Source of the DNA: Fragilariopsis cylindrus CCMP1102
Taxonomy: Eukaryota; Bacillariophyta; Bacillariophyceae; Bacillariales; Bacillariaceae
DNA length: 64,000 bases
Reading direction: 5' to 3'
Assembly: GCA_900095095.1 (NCBI GenBank)
Contig: FMBT01000455.1
Span: forward strand, 1-64,000
Within the stretch, counting starts at the first letter, position 1; each line of letters opens with the position of its first letter. The notes under the pieces are model-generated. The model was not told the DNA's origin and made no database searches. It worked only from the letters and a program-made list of their open reading frames with translations. Positions 11,637 through 47,200 of the stretch are shown piece after piece. A program made the translations under genes and the position numbers.

Positions 11637-12152
11637 TTATTCTTTCATTAATGTTTCGATATCTTTTTCAACATTCGTAGGAATACTTACTTTTCCAGAC
11701 TTTGAAACTAAATACGAAGTACTAAAATTCCATGTCGGGTCTTTGGAATTGTTGGAGGAATTATTATCCCTCATATATTTCCAAATAGTAGAGGCAGTAG
11801 TACCCTTCACACTTCCTAATGTCATGAGCTTACCAACACTCTCAAAAGGAAAGTTTTTTTTCATAGCAAATGAGGATATTTCTTGGTTGGTACCAAATTC
11901 TTGGTTCCCAAATTCTTGTGATGGGAAGGCTAAGATTGTTAATTCAGTGGAGGAGTATTTTTTTCCCAACGCTTCGAATAATTTATATCCACGTTGGGTC
12001 GCACCTCACTGTGATGCGACATTGGTCGCATAGATCACTTTGCCCTTCGACTCCGCCATCGAGATGGTGGATCCATCCGATTGGACACCCGAAAGTGAAT
12101 AAAAGGCAGTAGTACTATCGGGTATACTATTACTTGATGATGGCGGCGACAT
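11637..12152 (-). CDS. Glutathione peroxidase, selenocysteine-containing (in-frame UGA)
   Basis: Reduces hydroperoxides with thiols (GSH or thioredoxin). From ATG at 12152 it encodes 171 residues, the size of GPX4-type enzymes. Codon 49 is TGA (12,006-12,008) inside NVASQ-U-GAT, exactly where GPx carries catalytic Sec or Cys. The frame continues through ILAFPSQEFGNQEFGTN (Gln block) and PTWNFSTSYLV (Trp-Asn of the catalytic tetrad), then stops at 11637. Uninterrupted homology on both sides of the UGA, with no frame change, argues for recoding, not a nonsense mutation. A candidate SECIS lies in the 3' UTR. No signal peptide is evident; the N-terminus is short and Ser-rich. A standard caller would report only the part after the UGA. 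Confidence 0.85.
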
Positions 12153-12629: not shown

Positions 12630-13460
12630 ACCAGATGGGTTGGGTGCACTTGCATCCACATAGTGTACTTGAACATTGTGTTTTCCTCCTACAACCTTTT
12701 GTTTTCCTGTGGCTGTGGAATGACATTCATTTCACTGTTGTGCGTGGAAGGCACAAAAACAACAACACGATGAGCAGCAAAATATCTCAGTTGAAAGGGT
12801 TGCAGAAGACGACACCAGATGGGTTGGATGAACTAGCAACCATTATACCTATACCTAGAAGGTCCACATAATGCTTAGGTTTCCTTGGAGGTTATGAAGG
12901 TATAGGGTGGCATTTACCACAAAATGGACCATTTAGGCCCCAAAACAGGGTGTTTCCACTTTTGTGCGCACCTAGGCTGGGTCATCAACACAAAGCACCA
13001 GGAGTAAGTTCCTGCTGGTATACATGGTGCACCCGATCCACATATTTTGTGATGTTTCACCTTTTTGAGTGTACTGTATGTCCACAAAACACTGCAAATG
13101 GGCCATTTTTGGGGGTTATTTGATGTGTGTGCTGTGTGTGAGCCTACATTGTGAGATACCGGTAGGCTTAGAAGACTTAAAGATATAACACTACTCCCTC
13201 CAATAGGTCAATTGTAACCTTCATAGTTTACTTCTCCAAAAATATGACTATTTAGCTGTATATATTTGATGCTAAAGTTGTTACTATATACTAGGCTAAC
13301 AAATGCTAGTAAAATTTGGGCATGATTTAGCTTTTATATTAATCACTATTTCCACGCGGAGATTTATTAAGCGTTTCGATAGGTCACCCGGCGCGAAAAT
13401 TCAAAAAGAATATTCGTTTGAGGGGTGTAACGCACCAAAGTGGTACTAGTAGTGCATCAA
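12630..13460 (+). mobile_element. Non-coding repeat element family B, copy with right terminus
   Basis: Begins with about one unit of the family-B satellite (TTGAAAGGGTTGCAGA at about 12,792). It then holds a block starting TTATACCTATACCTA near 12,843, also present at about 53,467, and ends with a segment of about 310 bp (13,130-13,440). That segment is the inverted complement of 52,475-52,800, terminating in GGGGTGTAACGCACCAAA. Comparison of the two copies implies long terminal inverted repeats. No transposase frame is visible, so it is probably non-autonomous. It ends just over 100 bp upstream of the ATG of the next gene. Confidence 0.7.
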
Positions 13461-13573
13461 CAACAACGTACCGGTACCAATCTACAAAAAATATCAACAC
13501 AACATCAACAATCAACAATACAGTGGTACAGATAAAAATATTCCAGCACCGCATTCAGCACAAAGTCATCACC

Positions 13574-15200
13574 ATGTCACGTCAAGACTGGTTTGAAAAA
13601 GCAGAACGATCCGGACAGGAACTTGACGATCTGATCGGGCGGCGTGAAAAGCTGTCGGAAAAAACGGACGATCCCGAAGCAAAAGACTTCGATGAAGCAG
13701 TGGAGTTATTCTGTAGCGGGCTCAAAATTGCCCGCTTAGGTGGTGACTTAGAATTAGCCGCACCTCAGATAGCATGTGCGTTCCTTCTCAATGGTCGGAG
13801 TGTTAAATTCATACCGAAGATACCTGACAATCCAGCAGATCAGAGGAAAAAACATTTGGTATTGGATATAGAATTGTTACGTGCACTAACGCTAGCTACA
13901 TCAAAAAACTCTTCGGAAACTTATTCGTGCAGTGTGTTGAAAATTATGGCGGGGCAATTGCTTGGTAAACACAAACAAGCAGGTCAATCTTTGATTGCAG
14001 AGGCAATGACCGCTATTGAACGGCTATTGAATATAATTGCAGACGATCCTTCTATTGAAAATCCTGATAGGAAAATCGTTGGAGGGTGTTTGACGAGGAC
14101 GAATCTTTTGTTCCAAAGAAGTTCGTTACACATGGCAATGGGAAATCGTAAAAGGGCCATCAAGGATCTAACGAACGCACTAAAAATTGATGAATTTTGC
14201 ACAAAAGCTAGAGAATCAAGAGGATACTTGTGGGCTGGTTTTGACTTGAAAGATGACAGAACAATTCATATAGAGTTTACACGAGTTGCTAGTGAATTTC
14301 ATCGGGATAATATAAGAATGGAAGGGGTGTATGCTTGGCTTGCTATTACTACATTGAAATTGAATGATCCATCCATCGGATCCGCCGAGGATGCAAAAAC
14401 ACACTTCGAAAAATGTCTTAAAGCAACAATCCGCAAAGATGAACTTTATGGTCCACAACGACGTATTGATCAATTACCTCCATGTGTTCAACGAGCACAT
14501 GGTCTTTTTCAACAACTTCCAACAACTGAAAGTTACCAAAGAAATCTTCACGATATGATTCAAGGAATGAGAGGGATCTCTGTTGATAAATATGAGGAGG
14601 AAATTAGGAAGAACAAATACATGTGTGTAAAATGTGGTGCGAACCGTAAACCTGATGGTGGAATGGTTATGAAGTGCAGTAGGTGCAAGTCTGTTTCTTA
14701 CTGTTCGGCTGGATGCCAAAAAGCTGTAAGTTCGTTCTATCAATAATCACAGGTGTCCTTTTTATTTCTATTATTCAACAAACTAACAACTTTCTATGTT
14801 TCTTTTGCTTGTACGTTTGATGCCAACAAAACTTGCGACTTGTAGGATTGGTCAAGTCACAAACATTTTTGTAATACTATGAAAAAGTAAATCGTAAATT
14901 AACAAGCTCAACAGAATCTACTCGTCCGATGTATACCTAATGTAGGTGCAAGTTTACAAGGTGGTATAGTTGGTCCACGAGAAATCGCTAATATATCGTT
15001 TGTACAAATGGGTATAAGTGAAGAACCAACAACAGGAGGAGTAGCAGGAACAAGCAACGATAATGAAATTTTGTGATGCATTAGGACATACAAAAAGCGC
15101 ATCAGAAGCTATTAATAATGCACAATTATCTACTGATATGGGATCTCATATCGATATCGAAAACGAGGGTATGTCGTTGAAACAAATAAATAATGCATAA
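13574..15200 (+). CDS. TPR-like protein with C-terminal MYND zinc finger
   Basis: Probably a protein-interaction adaptor. The ATG at 13574 (MSRQDWFEK) is preferred over the unlikely frame extension into repeat DNA. The middle contains helical repeats resembling TPRs (RAIKDLTNALKIDEFCTKARE). The MYND finger starts at CVKCGANRKP, continues KCSRCKSVSYCSAGCQ, and is completed after a 120-bp intron (14,726-14,845, GTAAGT...TGTAG) by DWSSHKHFC. The strict frame stops at 14890. Coding-like sequence continues in shifted frames (VNRKLTSSTES, NVGASLQGGIVGPREI, CDALGHTKSASEA) to a stop at 15200, requiring about three single-base indels, so the true C-terminus is probably there. The upstream repeat element may supply its promoter. 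Confidence 0.7.
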
Positions 15201-15430
15201 GCTGTGTGAAGGAGGGACAAAAAATAACCTAAAAGTCACAACGTCGACGATGACGACGACAATCATATTACTGTTTGTAGACTATTTTCTATATTACATT
15301 ATTCGTTCGATTATATATATATAATTATTATAATTCATAGTAAAATTTTGTCGTTAAATTTCATCTCTTTCCGTTCGCGTACAAGCGAATCCTCTCTCCT
15401 TACTTTTATCCTCTCATTACCAATTATTTC
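15201..15430. other. Short convergent intergenic region
   Basis: Lies between the 3' ends of the MYND gene (plus) and the SEC6-like gene (minus). AT-rich with a (TA)n stretch near 15,314. No gene. Confidence 0.6.
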
Positions 15431-18400
15431 CTATTCCTTAACGACAGCTACTTCATCAACGAGATTCTGCCAAGTTTCTCTCCATTTACCAAGCATGATA
15501 TTACCTTGTTCGGCAGCGGTACGATTATATCCAGGACGGCTACGTTTATTTTCGTCACATAATCGTGCTAATTCTTGATCTAATCGTAATCCTGGTACAG
15601 TTTGACGAGCTAGTGCAACATCGAATGCTTCTGCATCATTCGGTGCAACAGCATTCAATTCTGTTTCCATCACATCAATCTTCTCGTATATATCCTTTTC
15701 TTCTTTCGGATTCATTGCATGCCATAAGTCACCAACAACAAGTTTCGTAATAGGAATATTCCTAATCCGTTTTTGTAATAAGATAACAAAATCACGATCG
15801 GATGATTGTGACAAACCTGCAGCGATGGATAATAATTCATGGAAGGTTTCTAATATTTCAAATTGTTCCGGAACGGCACGTTTCAACGCAGGATAGATAT
15901 CCATTAGACTATCGAAGTATTCCCTCATGGTTTCAATATCACCTCTAATCCGATCTAATGCTCTTTTATTGTCCGACCAAAGTGGTTTTTTATTATCCTT
16001 GTGATCGGCAACCTTCTTCAGTAAATATCTGATATAGAATATAACAGTTGCCGTAACTAATGCATCTAATGTTTTTCCGACCATCAGTTCATCTAAGAAA
16101 ACTTCTAAATCACCCACAAAATCTTCAAGAGTCTTAACTAACGTCAATGCTAATTCATTTGCAGTTAGTTCATTCAACCATTCGTCACCAAAAAGTTCTT
16201 CCGCAATTGCTTCCTCGATTGGTTCAAATATATAAATATGAACCTTTTGGGCAGCGAAGACAGCATCCCCACTATACAAACCCAATAGTACACCCGACTG
16301 TTCCTCTAGTTGATTTGTTGCGTCCTCTGGTAAATTAGATTCTTCGACTAAGTCTGCTAAAATTTCTTCACAATTTTCACTCATCCGAATAAAGTCATTC
16401 GATGCAGCACAACTTGTTTCAAAATCCAGTAAGAAATTATTACGACATGCGATTTGTTTCTCATACAAATTCTTAAAGATAACACCTACAGCCTGTACTA
16501 ATGCTTCCGATCGGCGTGTTAACCGTTCTTGGATAGTCCGGAGTTGTACACCCGCAAGGGAGTAAACATCTTCACTCAATGATGTAGTAAGCCGTCCCTC
16601 AGATGTTTGATTCTTGGTATGATCAGCACTACAAGAGGAAGGGTCGAGGCGGGGTGCGTTTATACAAAAGGAATAGAGAGTGCGTGCGAAAGTCGGTTCG
16701 GAGGAGAAAGACGAAGATATAGGGAGTCAAAGGCGGAATGAGATGGAAAGAAGAAAGGAAGGCGGTGGATGTGAGAAAAAGATAAAAAAATTCGACGGTT
16801 GAATCATCATCATCGTCAGAACACATAATAAATAAATGATAAGCAAATAACAAAAACGCAACACGCAAGACGTACTCGTATACATTATCAAGCCATTCAT
16901 GGGTTTGTTCTTTTGTTCGGAATAAGAATTCATCTTTAGCTAAATCGTGGACTTCCCATAACATATTATTTGCCCACGCCAAGAATCTTTTGCAACATCC
17001 ATATCAATTTCACGATTATCTTCTTGTAGTAAATCAGGACGTTTATTAAAGTATGTCTTTTTTGATATGTGTTCACCAATATTAGGGAATGTTTCTTCAA
17101 TAGTTGATCGGAAACTTTCTATCCATGCAACTAAATCCAATAATTGTGTTACAGTCAAATCAGGTAACTTATGTCCCTCTGTACCACCAATTTGATCTAG
17201 AATTTGTTTTGAACACACGTGTGCGACACATGTACTCCATAGCATTTCTAATGCCCAATTAAGTGGAAAACATGGTGACATTTGATTTTGTACAAATGCA
17301 ATTTCTGCTGTTAATTCATTTGCTGCACGTAATATAGCATTAAAGTATTCCGTTGCTTCTTCTGGATCGTCATCATTATACTCATCAACATCAACACCAC
17401 GTGCTTGTGCAACCTCATGCACCTCACGAAAAATTTCTAGTCCACGTAATTCAAAATCTTGATACATTTGTTTTAATGCTGATGCTCTCATATCAGTAAA
17501 CCGTAAATTTTGTTTATTTGTTGAATTACGAGTAGTATTACCGCCACTACCACCAGCTTCTTGACCATGTACTGTCCTATATTCATCATTAGCAGTTTCA
17601 TATACTTCTACAGCTTCCACCAATGCAACTAATCCAGCTGGATTATCTGTTGCTAATTCAAATGCTGCACCAATCCCCGACATAATCCTCATACGAATTT
17701 CATCTCCTAATTCCCATACATTCTTCACATGTTCATGTAAAAAATTATCAACTTCTTCATAATTCATCATTGAACTTAATCCACCAGCTGCACCATTATT
17801 ACCACCACCACGATTATGATGCGAACTCATCATACCACGAGACGAACGACGTATATGGGATGATCTTGTAGTATTCTCCATATCATCCATACCACCACCA
17901 CCACCATCATTTTGTTCCTGAAATTCTTCATCAATTCTTTTTTTCATACCAGCTTCTGCTTCCACTAAGAAAATTTCTAATTCCACATGTTCTCTGGATA
18001 CTTCTCGTAATGAATTCCATTCAATATCGGTCCATTCGGCTTGATGTAAATCTTCTCGTAAACGATCACATGTTACAGGAATTTGTGAATAAAAATCTAA
18101 TTCACGAAAACATCTGGCTAAATTACGTCTGGCATTAATAGCTTTTTTTAATTTTGGATATTTCGTTAACATAAATGTTTGTGATTTTGCCATCATATTA
18201 TTTTTAACCACAGAAGTACTACCTACAGTACCATTTCCAACACTACCAATATCATCAAAACCATTAGTATTCGATGGATTAGTAGTAACAACACCACCAA
18301 TATAGGTAGATAATTCCCGCAATCGACCTAAATCATCTTTGGTACTGTTGACAGCATTGACTAATTCTTGTACTTCACCACCCGATGCAGCCACACCATC

Positions 18401-19546
18401 ATTTAATCTGGAATTCACCATCGTTAATTGTCGTGAGGTACCATTCCGTAATTTAGATATTTCTTTATCCATTTTAGATGGACCTTCAATAATGTGTCCA
18501 AATGCACCCACCTCGATACCCTCGGATGTTTTCACGGAACCTTGATTATCTTGTGTTGTCATGGTAGTTTTCGAATCATCACCAATTGATATATTATCAT
18601 TATTTCCATTATTACCATTCCCATCTTTGGGTGTAGTATAATGTTTTTGTGCTGTTCGCATTGTGGATTTACCCATTCCACCATGTACTAATAATTCATC
18701 AATTAAACCACAATCAAATAACCAGGTACTCACGATAGATATCGCACGTTCTTCTGCTTTTCTTTCAAATTCGGATAAGGATAATCCTTGTACCGCAGTG
18801 GGTATATCAGTGGGATCCTCGGGACGTTGTAATAATAAATCTTGTTGTTTACTAAGAGCGTTCGCAGCATTTTGTGCTGCAATAAGTTCATTTTGTGCTG
18901 CAGCACCACCACCAAAACCAAAGAAACCACGTTTTTGAGGTGTACCTTGTGCTAATGGATCGTCACTAACACCACCCTCGTCTCCATCATTATCTTTATT
19001 TTCTTGTGCTGCTAGTACTAGTGCAGCATCCTCCTCGAGTTTAGTATAATATTTCTTTTGCACTTCATGATAATCATCATATGGCCATCGTACAATTTGT
19101 TTACCACCAAAAACACCAACAACACCTGCTTCTTTTTTCTTTCTTTGCTGTTCTTGCTGATACACAGCAGTAGCGTTGTTGGTTTCACCAATTGTACTTG
19201 ATCCACCGCCTCCATCATTATCGCCACCGCCTCCTCCAGCTCCAGCACTACTCGTTATATCATTACCACTACCACTAGTACCACTTGTGTTTCTACTTTT
19301 CATTAAAAAGTTTAATCCTTTACCAACACCAGCGAATCGTCCCTGGGGTTGAGATGGTGCACTGTTATCATCATTGTCGTTGTTGTCACCATCCTGCTTA
19401 TCGATACCACTCATTAATGGTTCACCACGTTCCGCAGCTTTTCTTGCTAAATATTGTTCACGTCTTTTTTGTACTTTATCAAAATCAACATCAAAGTCGA
19501 ATGGATTTGCTCCACCAGCCGCTGATGATGCTCCATCATTCGACAT
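15431..19546 (-). CDS. SEC6: Exocyst complex subunit SEC6-like (EXOC3 family)
   Basis: Part of the exocyst tether for secretory vesicles at the plasma membrane. Exon 1 is 19,546-16,876, a 247-bp intron (donor GTACGT, acceptor TTGTAG) follows, and exon 2 is 16,628-15,431. About 1,290 residues, longer than animal or yeast Sec6 because of a low-complexity, Gly/Asn/Ser-rich N-terminal half. Sec6-like segments are RRNLARCFRELDFYSQIPV, the helical block with MSPCFPLNWALEMLW and LTVTQLLDLVAWIESF, and in exon 2 NFLLDFETSCAASNDFIRM and FYIRYLLKK followed by long helices. One base is missing near 16,977 (TT for TTT), which moves the frame from VAKDS to LAWANNML. The assignment rests on motif order and helical pattern and no alignment was run; another CATCHR tether is the alternative. 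Confidence 0.7.
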
Positions 19547-20400
19547 ACTAGTATGGTAGTACTAGCTACAGTAGTACAGCTATTTATTATTTTGTTATTA
19601 TCTTCACTCTGGTTCAACTCTTTTCTTTCTAATCTTGCTACGGTTAGTTAGTTATCGTGAGGATGCCATGACTATTCTTGTCTCCTCGTTTTGTTGTCGT
19701 TGTTGTGTCTGTTGTTTGTTGCTTTGCTTTGCTTTGAAAAAAGAAAAAAAATCGAAGAAATAGTAGTTTTCACACGACACTTTGACTTTGGCTTATTGGC
19801 TGCATACATACTCAACGGTTCTCTACGTGGTGCCGCGCGCCGCCACCCCCCCCCCTTTTTTATTTTTTTGGTCCCGAATGTTAGTTACGTGACTGAGATT
19901 AGAGCGATGTGAGGTTTATTTATCGGCTTATTCAATAGATAATATCATTGAATTCAATGATCTTGCAGATCGAGTAGCTAGGAGAGGAATAAAACTTCAA
20001 GGTAAAGCTAATTGAATTCAATGACTTCCTTCCTCAGATGCATAGCTATTATGCTATGGTCATCACTTGCATTCTAATTGAATTCAATTGCTTTGTAATT
20101 GAGTTTTGTAATAGCTCTAATTTTATTTTTCATTTTAGGTGAATGTTTCTAAATAAAAGTGTAATTGATTGGGTTCAATGTCCTAACACACAATACGCAG
20201 GTGCAAATTTGCCATTATTTGGAAATTTCAAAAGCATTTGGAACAAATAACACTTCCTTTGTGTTGATTTCCAACCAATATTTGAATATAACATCTCCTT
20301 CCCGGCGATCCAAAAATACAATCTTTTTTTTTGTAGGCAACACACATTAACTTTTCTATTTGGGGATTTTCCTGAGAACCAGTGTTCTTAATTAACTATA
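19547..20400. other. SEC6 5' flank; no gene recognised
   Basis: Holds a C-then-T homopolymer block near 19,845-19,868 and three copies of the palindrome ATTGAATTCAAT (or the near form TTGAATTCAATG) around 19,949, 20,012 and 20,079, spaced about 65 bp. No supported coding frame. Confidence 0.5.
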
Positions 20401-22272: not shown

Positions 22273-23563
22273 ACAATTCCGCGCGCGGAAAAATCGAAAA
22301 GGGTTGTCCTCGTCGCTTCGCGACAACGCGTGGAAACACACGTTGTTTTGCAACACGACGAGTAAAGTTCGCGACGTGTTTACACCGACATCCGGTTCCT
22401 TGTTTTGACCGGTGGACTCTGTGTGTCTTGATATCAACTAGTAGGACAGTTTGGTTGAAAGAACTGGAGAAAAATGTTGGTTGTTAGCTTGTAACAGCGC
22501 CCTGTATTTCACCCTGGTGAGGTGCAGAGTACAAGTTAAACAGAGGTTAGCAGAGGCAACGACAGTGGAGGTGCGGTTCATCGGAACCATGGGATTTTTC
22601 TTATATCACATCCGGTCTGTCAGTACTTCTAGATCACTCCTGGTAATCGCGCACATGCGCGCAGTGAAATTGAATGAAGTAGTGACTTCATTTTCACGGT
22701 CTGTCTGTACCTAGGTCACCCATTCGCGCACAAGCGCGCAGTGAAACCGATAATGAATACACACGACTGAGGAAATAGCCAGCTTGGGACTAAGTCCGTA
22801 CTTATAGGTCACTCCTGGAATTGCCACGTGCGCAAGTGATACTGTTACTTAAGTACGTGGCTGATGACAAGACCGAATGGTAGTTAAAGAAGACCCACAT
22901 ACAAGCTAGGTGAGCCTCTTTTGATTATCCTTTACAGTAATGTAGGAACAGAAGTAGTAGCAAGATTCCTAGTAAGTATGGCCCTGTCAGTCTTGGCGCA
23001 GCCTCCATTCAAAGGTGAATGGACCACACACATTTCGTATGTATGGATGATTGATGCTTCTGATATGATTAGTCCTTTTTAACTAGTGCTTGCATTTGAT
23101 GCCATGGCGCGATTCAGGTGTTGCTAGTTAATGGCTATTCATAATCAATCAGTGCTGGTTGCAACAGCACAAATTTGGGTTTCTATTCCAACATTGTTCA
23201 TGGGATTTTCCCCCTTTAGGTGGGGGTTTTCTGCCACATCCCGGAGATGATAATTCACTACTGAGTGGTGGAGTTCTTTAGGCTATGCTATGTATTGTTT
23301 GTATTGCCATTGTTCCTGTTCGACAGTGCATTTTTATTTTTTATAACTTTTGTAATTATTGCCATCGAATTCGACAGTGCACTTGTTGCCATCGAAGAGA
23401 GTTGAGCACAATAAACCGTACGAGGTTGTGTGCCTTCTACAGTTACTTTAATCAATACAGTGTAGTAGTGTAGTACAGTGGCGGGTCGACCGGTGACTTT
23501 CTGTCTTTCTAAGGCTTTGAGGATCGAAGAGGCAGCTACTATAATTAAATAATAAGTTATATA
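22273..23563. mobile_element. Unclassified 1.29-kb insertion flanked by a 14-bp direct repeat
   Basis: The 14-mer TAGGTCACATACCC occurs at 22,259-22,272 and again at 23,564-23,577, but once in uninterrupted copy 1, the pattern of a target-site duplication. The insert is more GC-rich than its surroundings, opens with a TTCCGCGCGCGGAA palindrome, and contains about three diverged copies of a unit with GGTCTGTC and GCGCACATGCGCGCAGTGAAA. There is no coding frame with a domain. Right-edge sequence is AT-rich. A long target duplication would suit target-primed insertion (SINE/LINE-like), but the class is undetermined. Confidence 0.55.
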
Positions 23564-23850
23564 TAGGTCACATACCCCCCCCCCCCCCCCCCCCCCCCCA
23601 TGGGCCATTTTCCCATGTCCTAGGCTGCATCACACCCTTTACCACCTTCAAGTGTGAAGAACACATACCTAGCGCTCCAATGTCCTGTCCAGGTATCCAC
23701 CCTTCACATACCCCCCCCCCCCCCAATGGGCCATTTCCCATGTCCTAGGCTGCATCAAACCCTTTACCACCTTCTTCAAGTGTGAAGAACATATACCTAC
23801 CGTCCCAAAGTCCGGTCCAGGTATCCACCCTATGCATGTTAAAGCTATAT
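23564..23850 (+). repeat. Repeat family A, copy 2, right part with 137-bp tandem duplication and C runs
   Basis: Resumes the family-A match after the insertion. The segment from CACATACC through CTGCATCA and the GTGTGAAGAACA block is present twice with a period near 137 bp (about 23,568 and 23,705). Each copy starts with a C run, 25 C at 23,575-23,599 and 14 C at 23,711-23,724; copy 1 has only about six. Confidence 0.8.
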
Positions 23851-24473
23851 AAGGGTTTATATACGTATTTTTCGCATATTTGCTTGCAGATAAAAAGCAT
23901 TAGAAAAATGACATACTTCGAGGTCGAAATGAAAACGAAGAATGCCGCAACCAAATGGAACTCGAACATATATCCTTCAAAACGATGACGATACGACACG
24001 ACATAACATAACATCATGCCATGGCCATGATTGTAGCTACAGTATCAACTAACGGGTAAACAACTTTGACATGAAAAAAACGTGTTCAGGTCCTATATAT
24101 ATTTTTAGAATAGTAATGGTAATATTCTCTTTTAAAATAAAAATTACATTATAGTATTATATTATTTGCATAATTGACGTAAGGTAGCATATAGCATACG
24201 CACATGCTTGTCTGTTCTTATTAAAAAGTAAATGTCAGTCTGTTGTACTATTAGTACGATATAAAATATACTTCCCCCTGAGGAGGTTGTATACTATTTT
24301 CGTAAATAATAATATAAAAAAGACGTCATTCTTTACTGTTTGTTTTTACTTCAGATTTAGTTTGTTCGTGTGTTTTTGTTTGTCTCATCTTGTCAAATAA
24401 TAATAATACCGGTCGTGTTATGTTGCTATATATTGCTTTGCTTCGTTGTATTTGTATTTGTTTTTTATTTATT
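23851..24473. other. 3' flank of the SelU-like gene; SECIS not found by eye
   Basis: AT-rich sequence that includes the 3' UTR of the minus-strand gene ending at 24,474. TGA-containing hairpins were examined, but none gave a convincing quartet plus AA apical loop. No other gene. Confidence 0.4.
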
Positions 24474-25562
24474 TTATGAACTAACAGCAATCGATAATAT
24501 TTCATCAATATTTGGATGATCACCTGGTAAACGATCATTCCATTGATATATAATATCATCCCCTTTGACAACAAATGTACCACCCAGTCGTAGTACACCT
24601 TCTGGTACACCACCACCTAACTTGACACCATCTTTTGGTATAGGACTTAATTTACCAACGGATGTGATATAGGTCATCCATTGTTTAAACTTTAAGGATG
24701 GTGGTTTTAAATTCACAGCCTTCGCATCTTCGGGGGAGGTATCTGTAAATTTTTTAGTAAATCCAACAGTGTCATAGGCATCAAATGTGGTGGATTCATC
24801 GACAAACATATTATTTCTATTGATCAAAGGATTTTTATCTAGAAACACATTTAATTTCTCAGAATCACCAACCGAAACAAATATTGGTCCTAATATATTA
24901 TGATCATTTAATTTTTGCTGTACGTTTTGCCATTCATTTGCATACGTCCAGCAATAGGCTGTTGTTTGTTTTATTTTATTTTGTTGTTGTAATATTATGT
25001 TATTGTTGTTTTGTAGTTGTTGTTGTCGTCGCAGATGCGGATGCAGCAGTATAGTTGAATCGAATCGGACCAGGGGAAGCAAAATTGTTAGAAGAAAAAG
25101 AAAGGGGAACGATTGAATGATGATATATGAAAAGTAGAATGCAGAATAGAATAGAAAACACAACGATTGATTCATTCAAATTTTTAACTTACGTCATCCC
25201 ATATGTCTTAAAAATACCACCACTGATGTCATTGGTTTATCTTTTTCAAGTCCCAACATATCACCTAATGCAATTTGTTCACCATCCACATTTGTGACAA
25301 TAGCATTCCGTAATGCTTTGGAATTTTTTAATGTACCATCAATTTCTTCCATATCGGATGGCATATCACATGGTTGTTGTTGTTCCTCTGTCGATGAAGA
25401 CGACAAGACGATGCAGCTGTTGCTGCTACTGCTACTGCTGATACGAGCACTCTTCTTGTTTATGTTGGTGTGTTGGATGATATTGATAGGTGTAAAGGCA
25501 TTAGTCATCGCGGCTGCTGACAATAGAAACGCCGAAACGACGCTTCTGTTCAAAATTCTCAT
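24474..25562 (-). CDS. SelU/PRXL2-like thioredoxin-fold selenoprotein, probably plastid-targeted
   Basis: A peroxiredoxin-like (AhpC/TSA-type) redox protein. Exon 1 (25,562-25,193) reads VVVFLRHMG then TGA (25,194-25,196), one base before a perfect GTAAGT donor. Exon 2 (24,958-24,474) follows an AACAACAG acceptor and reads CC-TAT-TGC-TGG. Splicing therefore gives FLRHMG-U-P-Y-C-WTYANEW, a UxxC redox motif exactly at the CxxC site of this family. The Sec is residue 123 of 284. The C-terminal half (GDSEKLNVFLDKNP, GGTFVVKGDDIIYQW) fits the thioredoxin fold. The N-terminus MRILNRSVVSAFLLSAAAM then TNAFTP looks like a signal peptide with the ASAFAP motif used for diatom plastid import. No SECIS was identified. 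A caller treating UGA as stop would split it. Confidence 0.8.
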
Positions 25563-25979
25563 CTTTTTTCTCTCTCTTTCTCTTCTTGTTGTTTCTTTCC
25601 TTTCTTTCTTTACTGTCTCGCCGGTTCGATGTTTGTGAGTGGTACAGTAGATGATATTACCTGATATTTTTTAGATTTTTCTACTCTTGTTGTTTGACTG
25701 TCTTTTGTTTGACGACACCGTCAGATGAGAATTTGTGATTGTTTGGGAAGTTACATCATTGACGTCATTTATTTTGCTGAGTGAATCAATCAATCAATCA
25801 CGAATACCGCATGTAAACGATTAATTTAATGCGTGATTTGGACTGAGTCAAACAAAACAAAAAATGGAAAAGTGTGGCCCTGGACTTGATATGTTTGTTA
25901 ATGAAATGCGATAGAGGCGCGAATAAGGATCGTCGATTTTATGTTTGTGGCAAGGAAAAAGGGCAACGATGCGACTATT
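25563..25979. other. 5' flank of the SelU-like gene
   Basis: Contains T/C-rich leader sequence directly upstream of the ATG and (CAAT)n near 25,787-25,800. No gene seen. Confidence 0.4.
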
Positions 25980-44273: not shown

Positions 44274-47200
44274 TTATATAGAAGGTGATAAGCTCGGTGC
44301 ATTACTCATACTAGGTATATCACTGGGTGCAATACTCATAGAAGGTACAAAGCTTATGCTGGGTTCAGTACTGGGTGCAATACTCAATGTGGGTACAAAG
44401 CTTATACTGGGTTGAACACTGGGAGATGCACTCGGTTCGGCACTAGGGATGGAGCTTGGTGAATCACTGGGTTCATCACTCGGTGCAGTACTTGTGGTGG
44501 GTACAAAGCTTATGCTGGGTGCAATACTGGGTGCTAAACTTGGTGCTACACTAGGGACGGAACTTGCTGATGATGTTGGCGGTAACGTGGCAGTAGGTGA
44601 TGCAGTAGAAGGTGATGTGCTTGGTACATTACTCATGCTAGGTATATCACTGGGTGCAATACTCAAGGAAGGCACGAAGCTTATGCTGGGTTCATTACTT
44701 GGTGCAATACTCAATGTTGGTACAAAGCTTATGCTAGGTTGATCACTGGGAGATGCACTCGGTACATCACTAGGGACGGAACTTGGTGAATTACTGGGTT
44801 CATCACTAGGTGCAGTACTTGTGCTGGGTACAAAACTTATGCTGGGTGCAATACTGGGAGATAAACTTGGTTCTATAGAAGGGACAGAACTTGCTGATGA
44901 TGTTGGTTGTAATGAAGTGGTAGGCGATGCAGTAGAAGGTGGTGTGCTTGGTACATTACTCATGCTAGGTACATCACTAGGTGCAATACTCATTGTAGGA
45001 ATAAAGCTTATGCTGGGTTCATTACTGGGTGCAATACTCAATGTGGGTACAACGCTTATGCTGGGTTGATCACTGGGGGATGTACTTGGTACATCACTAG
45101 GAAGACCACTAGGAACATCACTCGGCTCATCACTAGGTGCAGTACTTGTGCTGGGTACAAAACTTATGCTGGGTGAATTACTGGGGGATAAACTTGGTTC
45201 TATAGAAGGGACGGAACTTGCTGATGATGTTGGTTGTAATGAAGTAGTAGGTGATGCAGTAGAAGGTGATGCGCTCGGTAGATTACTCATACTAGGTACA
45301 TGACTAGGTGCAATACTCATTGTAGGTATAAAGCTTATGCTTGGTTCAGTACTGGGTGCAATACTTGTCGTCGGTACAAAGCTTACACTGGGTTGATCAC
45401 TGGGAGATCTACTCGGTACGTCACTAGGAAGAGCACTAGGAACATCGCTTGGTTCCTCACTCGGCCCAGTACTTGAGGTGGGTATAAAGCTTATACTGGG
45501 TGCATTACTGGGTGCTAAACTTGGTGCTAAACTAGGGACAGAACTTGCTGATGATGTTGGTTGTAATGAAGTGGTAGGTGATAAAGTAGTAGGTAATGAG
45601 CTTGGTACATTACTCATGCTAGGCACATCACTAGGTGCAACACTCAAACTCGGTACAAAGCTTATGCTGGGTTCATTACTAGGTGCAATACTTGTCGTCG
45701 GTACAAAGCTTACACTGGGTTGATCGCTGGGGGATGTACTCGGTACATCACTAGGAAGACCACTGGGAACATCGCTTGGTTCATCACTGGGTGCAGTGCT
45801 TGTGGTTGGTACAAAGCTTATGCTGGGTGCAATACTGGGAGATATACTTGGTCTTTCACTGGGTGCATTACTTGCTGCTGCGCTTGGTGCGGAACTAGGA
45901 ACATCACTAGGAACATCACTTGGTTCATCACTAGGTGCAGTACTCGTTGTTGGTACAAAGCTTATACTAGGTGTAATACTGGGGAATAAACTTGGTGTTA
46001 AACTAGGGACGGTACTTGCTGATACTGTCGGTTGTGATGACGTAGTAGGTGATAAAGTGGTTGGTGATGCGCTTGGTGCATTACTGATGCTAGGTACATC
46101 ACTGGGTGCAATACTCATTGTAGGTATAAAGCTTATGCTGGGTTGATCGCTGGGTGCAATACTCATGGTGGGTACAAAGCTTACACTGGGTTGATTACTG
46201 GGGGATGCACTCGGAATATCACTAGGAATATCACTAGGAACATCGCTTGGTTCATCACTGGGCGCAGTACTAAGTGTTGGTACAAAGCTAATGCTGGGTG
46301 CAATACTGGGTGATATAGTTGGTGTTACACTGGGTACATCACTCGGTGCAATACTCATGGTAGGTATAAAGCTTATGCTGGGTTGATCGCTGGGTGCAAT
46401 ACTCATGGTGGGTACAAAGCTTACACTGGGTTGATCACTGGGGATGCACTGGGTACATCACTAGGAACATCACTAGGAACATCACTTGGTTGATCACTGG
46501 GTGCAATACTAATTGTTGGTACAAAGCTTATGCTGGGTGCAATACTGGGAGATATACTTGGTCTTTCACTAGGTGCATTACTTGCAGCTCCGCTTGGCGC
46601 AGAACTTGGCAAAGCAGATACTGTTGGACTAACTGATGGCATATTAGTAGGATTGGAACTATCTGATGGTACACTGCTAGGATATGAACTGATTGATGGC
46701 TGATCACTAGGTGCAACACTCAAAGTCGGTACAAAGCTTATACTGGGTTGATCACTGGGTGCAATACTCGACGTTGGTACAAAGCTTACACTGGGTTGAT
46801 CACTGGGAGATACACTTGGTACAGTACTAGGGACATCACTTGGTGATGTACTGGGTACATCAGATGGTGTAGTACTCGGTTCTAAACTAGGAGCGGAACT
46901 TACGCTGGGTTCATTACTGGGTGCAGCACTCGTTGTTGGCACACTACTTGAACTAGGAGATAAACTTACGGAAGTTGGTGAATTCGATAATGTTAATGTC
47001 GGTGCAAATGTAGTAGTAGGTGATGTGCTGGTGCAGCACTTGTGGTGGGTGCAGCACTGGGTACAAGACTTGCGGTTGGTACAAAACTTATACTGGGTTG
47101 ATCACTGGGTGCAATGCTCAGGGTCGGTACGAAGCTTATACTGGGTGATCACTGGGGGATGCACTCGGAATCACTAGGAGATTCACTTGGTGATCACTTG

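Follow-up and report, generated by a model that had tools for sequence, protein, structure and literature searches.

A probable SelU-type nuclear gene with an intron one base after its UGA

The window, that is, the whole 64,000-nt stretch of Fragilariopsis cylindrus CCMP1102 DNA analysed here, carries on its minus strand what is very probably a nuclear diatom gene for a thioredoxin-fold selenoprotein of the SelU/PRXL2 type, with an in-frame UGA read as selenocysteine (Sec). We refer to it as SelU1. The Sec reading, the UxxC placement, and the family identity, already proposed in a first-pass annotation, are favored by a second copy of the gene, by TGA codons at the same site in its paralogues, by genes for the Sec machinery, and by a hairpin located in the presumed 3' untranslated region (UTR).

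We rebuilt the gene model by script and obtained two exons of 370 and 485 nt that join into 855 nt in frame and encode a 284-residue product. Exon 1 (25193..25562) contains the ATG, the presequence, and the start of the thioredoxin-like domain, and runs through the Sec codon plus one base; exon 2 (24474..24958) continues with PYC-WTYANEW and extends through the stop codon TAA. The 234-nt, phase-1 intron between them (24959..25192; GTAAGT...AACAACAG) has splice sites that are conserved in the second copy. The sole internal stop in the joined frame is the TGA at 25194..25196, one base ahead of the donor, which as Sec would be residue 123 and the first position of a UxxC motif. The first-pass annotation had placed a GTAAGT donor one base from the UGA and stated that splicing to the AACAACAG acceptor preserves the frame; donor, acceptor, and coordinates all proved exact, and the spliced peptide reads FLRHMG-U-PYC-WTYANEW. 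Annotation could well truncate SelU1 at its active site.

The second copy lies on another contig (C464:108030-109097; the window copy is designated C67) and keeps the ATG, the TGA, the donor, and the acceptor. When C464:80001-130000 was compared with the window, bases 1 to ~46,600 of the latter were collinear with C464 apart from two inverted segments, 12631-19892 and 24062-25784, the second of which comprises just the SelU gene. Many shifted C464 matches fall inside a long open frame at window positions 44279-46606, as a tandem-repeat protein would give. The two SelU1 copies are either diverged haplotypes or a duplicated segment, probably the former. A reported long-read assembly of this species has 745 primary and 288 alternate contigs (59.7 + 9.1 Mb; PMC5634323). 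Since the copies are probably haplotypes, their conservation weighs less than conservation between species would.

Paralogues and family identity

Three further loci, on C451, C288, and C306, have one TGA each and show 32% identity to SelU1. Those on C451 and C288 seem to represent a single gene present twice (SelU2), with downstream stretches that are 89% identical, and the three loci represent two distinct paralogous genes. The motif reads FLRHFG-U-FLCWE at C451 and C288 and FLRSLG-U-PLCQE at C306 (SelU3), the TGA occupying the same CxxC position as in SelU1. In an alignment of four rows, one for each distinct paralogous gene plus both SelU1 copies, the F, L, R, G, U/C, and C columns were invariant, with the UxxC/CxxC site following FLRxxG.

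Taken alone, SelU1 scored 20 bits against PF00578 (cut-off, 26) and was not listed for PF13911. Its best single-sequence family match was NF040769, a family of SelL-related redox proteins (E 5e-13; 49 bits; cut-off, 120). A search of the genome with PF13911 returned 4 matches, which included C306 and neither SelU1 copy. The SelU2 and SelU3 proteins pass PF13911 at 32.0 and 46.7 bits (cut-off, 27), and hhalign related SelU1 to SelU2/SelU3 with a probability of 98.5% and an E value of 1.7e-15. Searching PDB by phmmer with SelU1 alone gave nothing relevant and did not find entry 9us9, a prostamide/prostaglandin F synthase; the four-sequence profile reached this entry at E 2.7e-8, and its CxxC aligns with the UxxC. 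The SelU/PRXL2-like identity put forward by the first-pass annotation is favored by the hhalign link to paralogues that pass PF13911 and by the profile match to 9us9. The same annotation had located the UGA at the first Cys of a CxxC and had proposed an alignment with homologues of this type that have Sec or Cys there; the TGA column is common to SelU1 and its paralogues, the two paralogous genes having TGA at the site and 9us9 having Cys. Outside this genome, no relative was confirmed in viral contigs, for which both SelU1 and the alignment of four sequences served as queries, or in bacterial and archaeal genome contigs, queried with the alignment. From the family searches, we take SelU1 to be a putative SelU/PRXL2-type protein that stands somewhat apart from the core family.

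Selenocysteine machinery and other selenoproteins of the genome

We searched the genome for components of the Sec machinery. It comprises 67.9 Mb in 818 contigs, and 27 matches to silicon transporters, including two of almost full length, mark it as that of a diatom. There were 15 matches to tRNA-Sec, 13 of them above the Rfam cut-off; eight sequences were read, and those that ARAGORN drew have a TCA anticodon. The 13 genes lie on C69, C547, C56, C138, and C678, and 12 of them sit in four clusters of three, ~160-220 bases apart. Some of them are probably haplotype copies of one another, and C69/C547 and C56/C138 may be haplotype pairs; eleven tRNA-Sec predictions have been reported for this species (PMC5330540). 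SepSecS and selD are present as well, tRNA-Sec, SepSecS, and selD being the components covered.

The stretch upstream of selD reads FSDLKG-U-ACK, giving an SPS2 with TGA at the known Sec site. A TGA is likewise found at the known Sec site in 5 of 9 GPX matches (one in the window), in SelT (1 of 3 Rdx matches), and in MsrA on C354 (1 of 15 PMSR matches). A search for Sep15/SelM found nothing, and its control was silent too. The Sec glutathione peroxidase of the window, presumably its other selenoprotein, lies at 11637-12152 on the minus strand (TGA 12008-12006), with a partner at C464:97491-97826; its SECIS-like hairpin, at about 11466-11375, has an AA 14 nt after the core (13 nt in the C464 copy).

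A SECIS-like hairpin downstream of the stop codon

A SECIS had been anticipated at about 23,900-24,470, and a candidate hairpin does lie inside this range, at 24227..24337 on the minus strand in the presumed 3' UTR (AGTAAA / AATGAC GTC ... GAC TGAC / TTTACT), but the canonical AA spacing is absent. Scanning 1.4 kb downstream of the stop yielded one hairpin with an [AG]TGA / GA core per copy, at the same aligned place; as in a SECIS, an AUGA / GA core is closed by a stem and lies 3' of the coding region. The inner stem folds at -22.1 (C67) and -19.4 kcal/mol (C464). When the first 500 nt were dinucleotide-shuffled 400 times, no shuffle attained this energy in either copy, and a second shuffle variant over 700 nt reached the hairpin in 0/200 and 1/200 cases. 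The whole-element z-scores are -4.18 and -2.44. The hairpin block is 88.8% identical between the copies, compared to 66.1% for the preceding 124 nt. No base differs in its outer stem AGTAAA/TTTACT or in the GTC/GAC stem that surrounds the core, and 1 of the 33 consensus pairs, an inner one, shows a two-sided compensatory change.

According to a published search rule for SECIS elements (PMC2375036), an unpaired AA or CC should lie 10-13 nt past the core. Neither SelU1 copy has AA or CC at that distance from its AUGA core, even when the rule is widened to 9-15 nt. Applied to 11 downstream stretches of this genome, the strict rule gave nothing in eight and three single hits off the expected cores, and the wider one was satisfied at the expected cores by GPX1a, GPX1b, and SelT. 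Rfam scans found no SECIS in the window at gathering scores or in 22800-25700 at E 10, and a SECIS_1 search of the genome returned 0 matches, with a control that was likewise silent. Sec might be inserted by means of another element, located elsewhere or unusual in form, and the hairpin at 24337-24227 would not be the SECIS. The missing AA fits this reading, as does the conservation of the next 115 nt, which at 87.0% is about the same as that of the hairpin; nevertheless, the hairpin is the only candidate past the scan filters in the 1.4 kb downstream in both copies, and the shuffles almost never reach it, so we consider another element unlikely. We favor the hairpin as a likely SECIS of irregular form, the departure from the canonical AA position making it likely and not proven.

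The candidates downstream of SelU2 are weak (reached by 6 to 8 of 200 shuffles, the best one of SelU2a not being at the expected core), as is that of GPX2 (15/200), and the SelU3 candidate falls beyond the 700 nt used in the shuffle test; we therefore make no general claim about SECIS elements in this genome. SelT (C79) is followed by two strong SECIS-like hairpins, beginning the count at its downstream stretch at ~243 and 608 nt, the second of which may serve another transcript. With some elements breaking the textbook spacing, this genome is useful for asking what a diatom SECIS needs. We also considered a recoding hairpin just after the UGA and do not claim one: the 48 nt there fold at -13.3 (C67) and -18.3 kcal/mol (C464), values equalled by 918 and 184 of 2000 synonymous randomisations, respectively, with similar counts for 60- and 72-nt windows. 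The C464 fold is the strongest of 277 48-nt coding windows, and the C67 fold is outside the best 8 of 269.

Coding constraint after the UGA

If the UGA were a true stop, as it is in the standard code, SelU1 would be a decaying or truncated gene copy with a frame of 122 aa up to the UGA and an untranslated exon 2. Comparison of the two copies argues against this. The dN/dS ratio is 0.204 before the UGA and 0.112 after it, with dS values of 0.245 and 0.220, respectively. Exon 2 is identical at 456 of 485 columns with no gap, and the end of its frame is conserved; exon 1 is identical at 341 of 370 aligned bases, and the lengths of its 3 gaps are all multiples of 3. Of the 7 alignment gaps in the intron, 5 are not multiples of 3. 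Together with the retained-intron frames described below, these figures indicate that the stretch beyond the UGA is under constraint as protein and that the intron is most likely non-coding; the C67 frame, free of TAA and TAG, speaks against the intron in that copy only. In addition, the second Cys of the CxxC falls after the UGA, and the TGA recurs at the same place in two paralogous genes. We thus regard a true stop as very improbable. SelU1, read with Sec, combines an in-frame UGA at the Cys site of its homologues with constraint after it, as expected of a selenoprotein gene.

Silent changes between the SelU1 copies were depleted near the UGA (30 codons, 2/35, uncorrected P = 0.009; 20 codons, P = 0.025; 40 codons, P = 0.014). 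This depletion was not repeated in the part of SelU2 that was compared (5/17; P = 0.77), so we do not claim it.

We give hardly any credence to a different protein made by a splice route that removes the UGA or by intron retention. In its favor, the TGA does lie one base from the donor, upstream GTs in phase with the acceptor exist, and a retained intron in C67 would bring in neither TAA nor TAG. Against it, splicing from these GTs, the nearest of which starts 68 nt ahead of the TGA (GGTGATA), would cost the protein the FLRHMG strand common to the paralogues, retention would put 78 codons between U and YC and meets a TAA in C464, and both paralogous genes read through the UGA site without an intron. 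A frame free of TAA and TAG, as in C67, is also seen in 86 of 5000 shuffles; the retained frame holds one further TGA in C67 and one TAA plus one TGA in C464; the intron lengths, 234 and 192 nt, are both multiples of 3.

Intron placement after selenocysteine codons

The UGA-intron geometry of SelU1 recurs in an unrelated gene, the GPX on C299 (C299:429368-429592 plus an upstream exon), where TGA-G / GTAGGT...AAACAAAAG / GT sets a phase-1 intron a single base past the Sec codon. Donors follow the UGA at +31 in GPX3, at +322 in SelU3, and possibly at +58 in SPS2, and GPX1 and GPX2 have no intron directly after it. Under the 50-nt rule, a UGA one base before a junction would escape junction-dependent decay. 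Such decay can be set off by a UGA that is taken for a stop (PMC8704476). Introns placed directly after some Sec codons would leave no junction far downstream, and termination at the UGA would then avoid mRNA decay. SelU3, with its donor at +322, does not fit this idea, which we rate as quite improbable; because the pattern emerged post hoc and from few genes, we offer it as a hypothesis only. Among the titles and abstract openings listed for diatom SelU, Fragilariopsis SECIS, selenoprotein mRNA decay, and intron gain with UGA, none described a Sec codon adjoining an intron in diatoms. The genome also lends itself to asking whether Sec mRNAs are shielded from decay by the position of their introns.

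Predicted plastid import and function

SelU1 begins with a signal-peptide-like N-terminus (25497..25562, minus strand) that ends in TNA/FTP, an ASAFAP-like motif. Motifs of this type are the plastid import signal of diatoms. A hydrophobic stretch starts at residue 8, and the A/F junction follows residue 22 (TDA/FTP in C464); the 36 residues after it include 0 (C67) or 1 (C464) acidic, 3 basic, and 19 S/T/N residues. The composition fits a transit peptide rich in hydroxylated residues and nearly devoid of acidic ones. We take this N-terminus to resemble a diatom plastid presequence, and the protein is probably imported into the plastid, judging from these features.

In the course of events that we propose, the conserved splice sites bring the UGA and PYC together in one reading frame, as can be read from the exons. 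The SECIS-like hairpin in the 3' UTR would direct Sec-tRNA to the UGA, and the ribosome would make FLRHMG-U-PYC. The protein would enter the plastid via its signal-plus-transit presequence and may act there as a thiol/selenol redox enzyme, its selenolate attacking the substrate and the second Cys resolving the intermediate. As a predicted Sec redox enzyme targeted to the plastid, SelU1 is one more protein that can be tested in diatoms.

Comparison with known systems

In known SelU proteins, Sec is the first residue of UxxC. Like the SelU/PRXL2 proteins of algae and vertebrates, SelU1 appears to combine Sec with a thioredoxin-like domain of SelU type, but it differs from them in not being listed for PF13911 when searched alone, in the intron one base after its UGA, and in its plastid-type presequence. 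The motif of SelL is UxxU; SelU1 has UxxC, and its match to the SelL-related NF040769 stays at 49 bits against a cut-off of 120. Of the solved structures reached with the four-sequence profile, 9us9, which we take to be PRXL2B, is the closest; it has Cys where SelU1 would have Sec, and the match implies no prostanoid substrate for the diatom protein. AhpC_b of Thalassiosira oceanica is a diatom selenoprotein described as having an AhpC-TSA domain and a UxxC motif (PMC7539508), a description that may also fit SelU1. Of 36 algal genomes, more than half were reported to have a SELENOU that contains Sec (PMC7539508), and two SelU genes were reported in Thalassiosira pseudonana (PMC2375036). Since SelU selenoproteins have thus already been reported from diatoms, SelU1 looks like a real but mostly ordinary gene, a further case of a known type.
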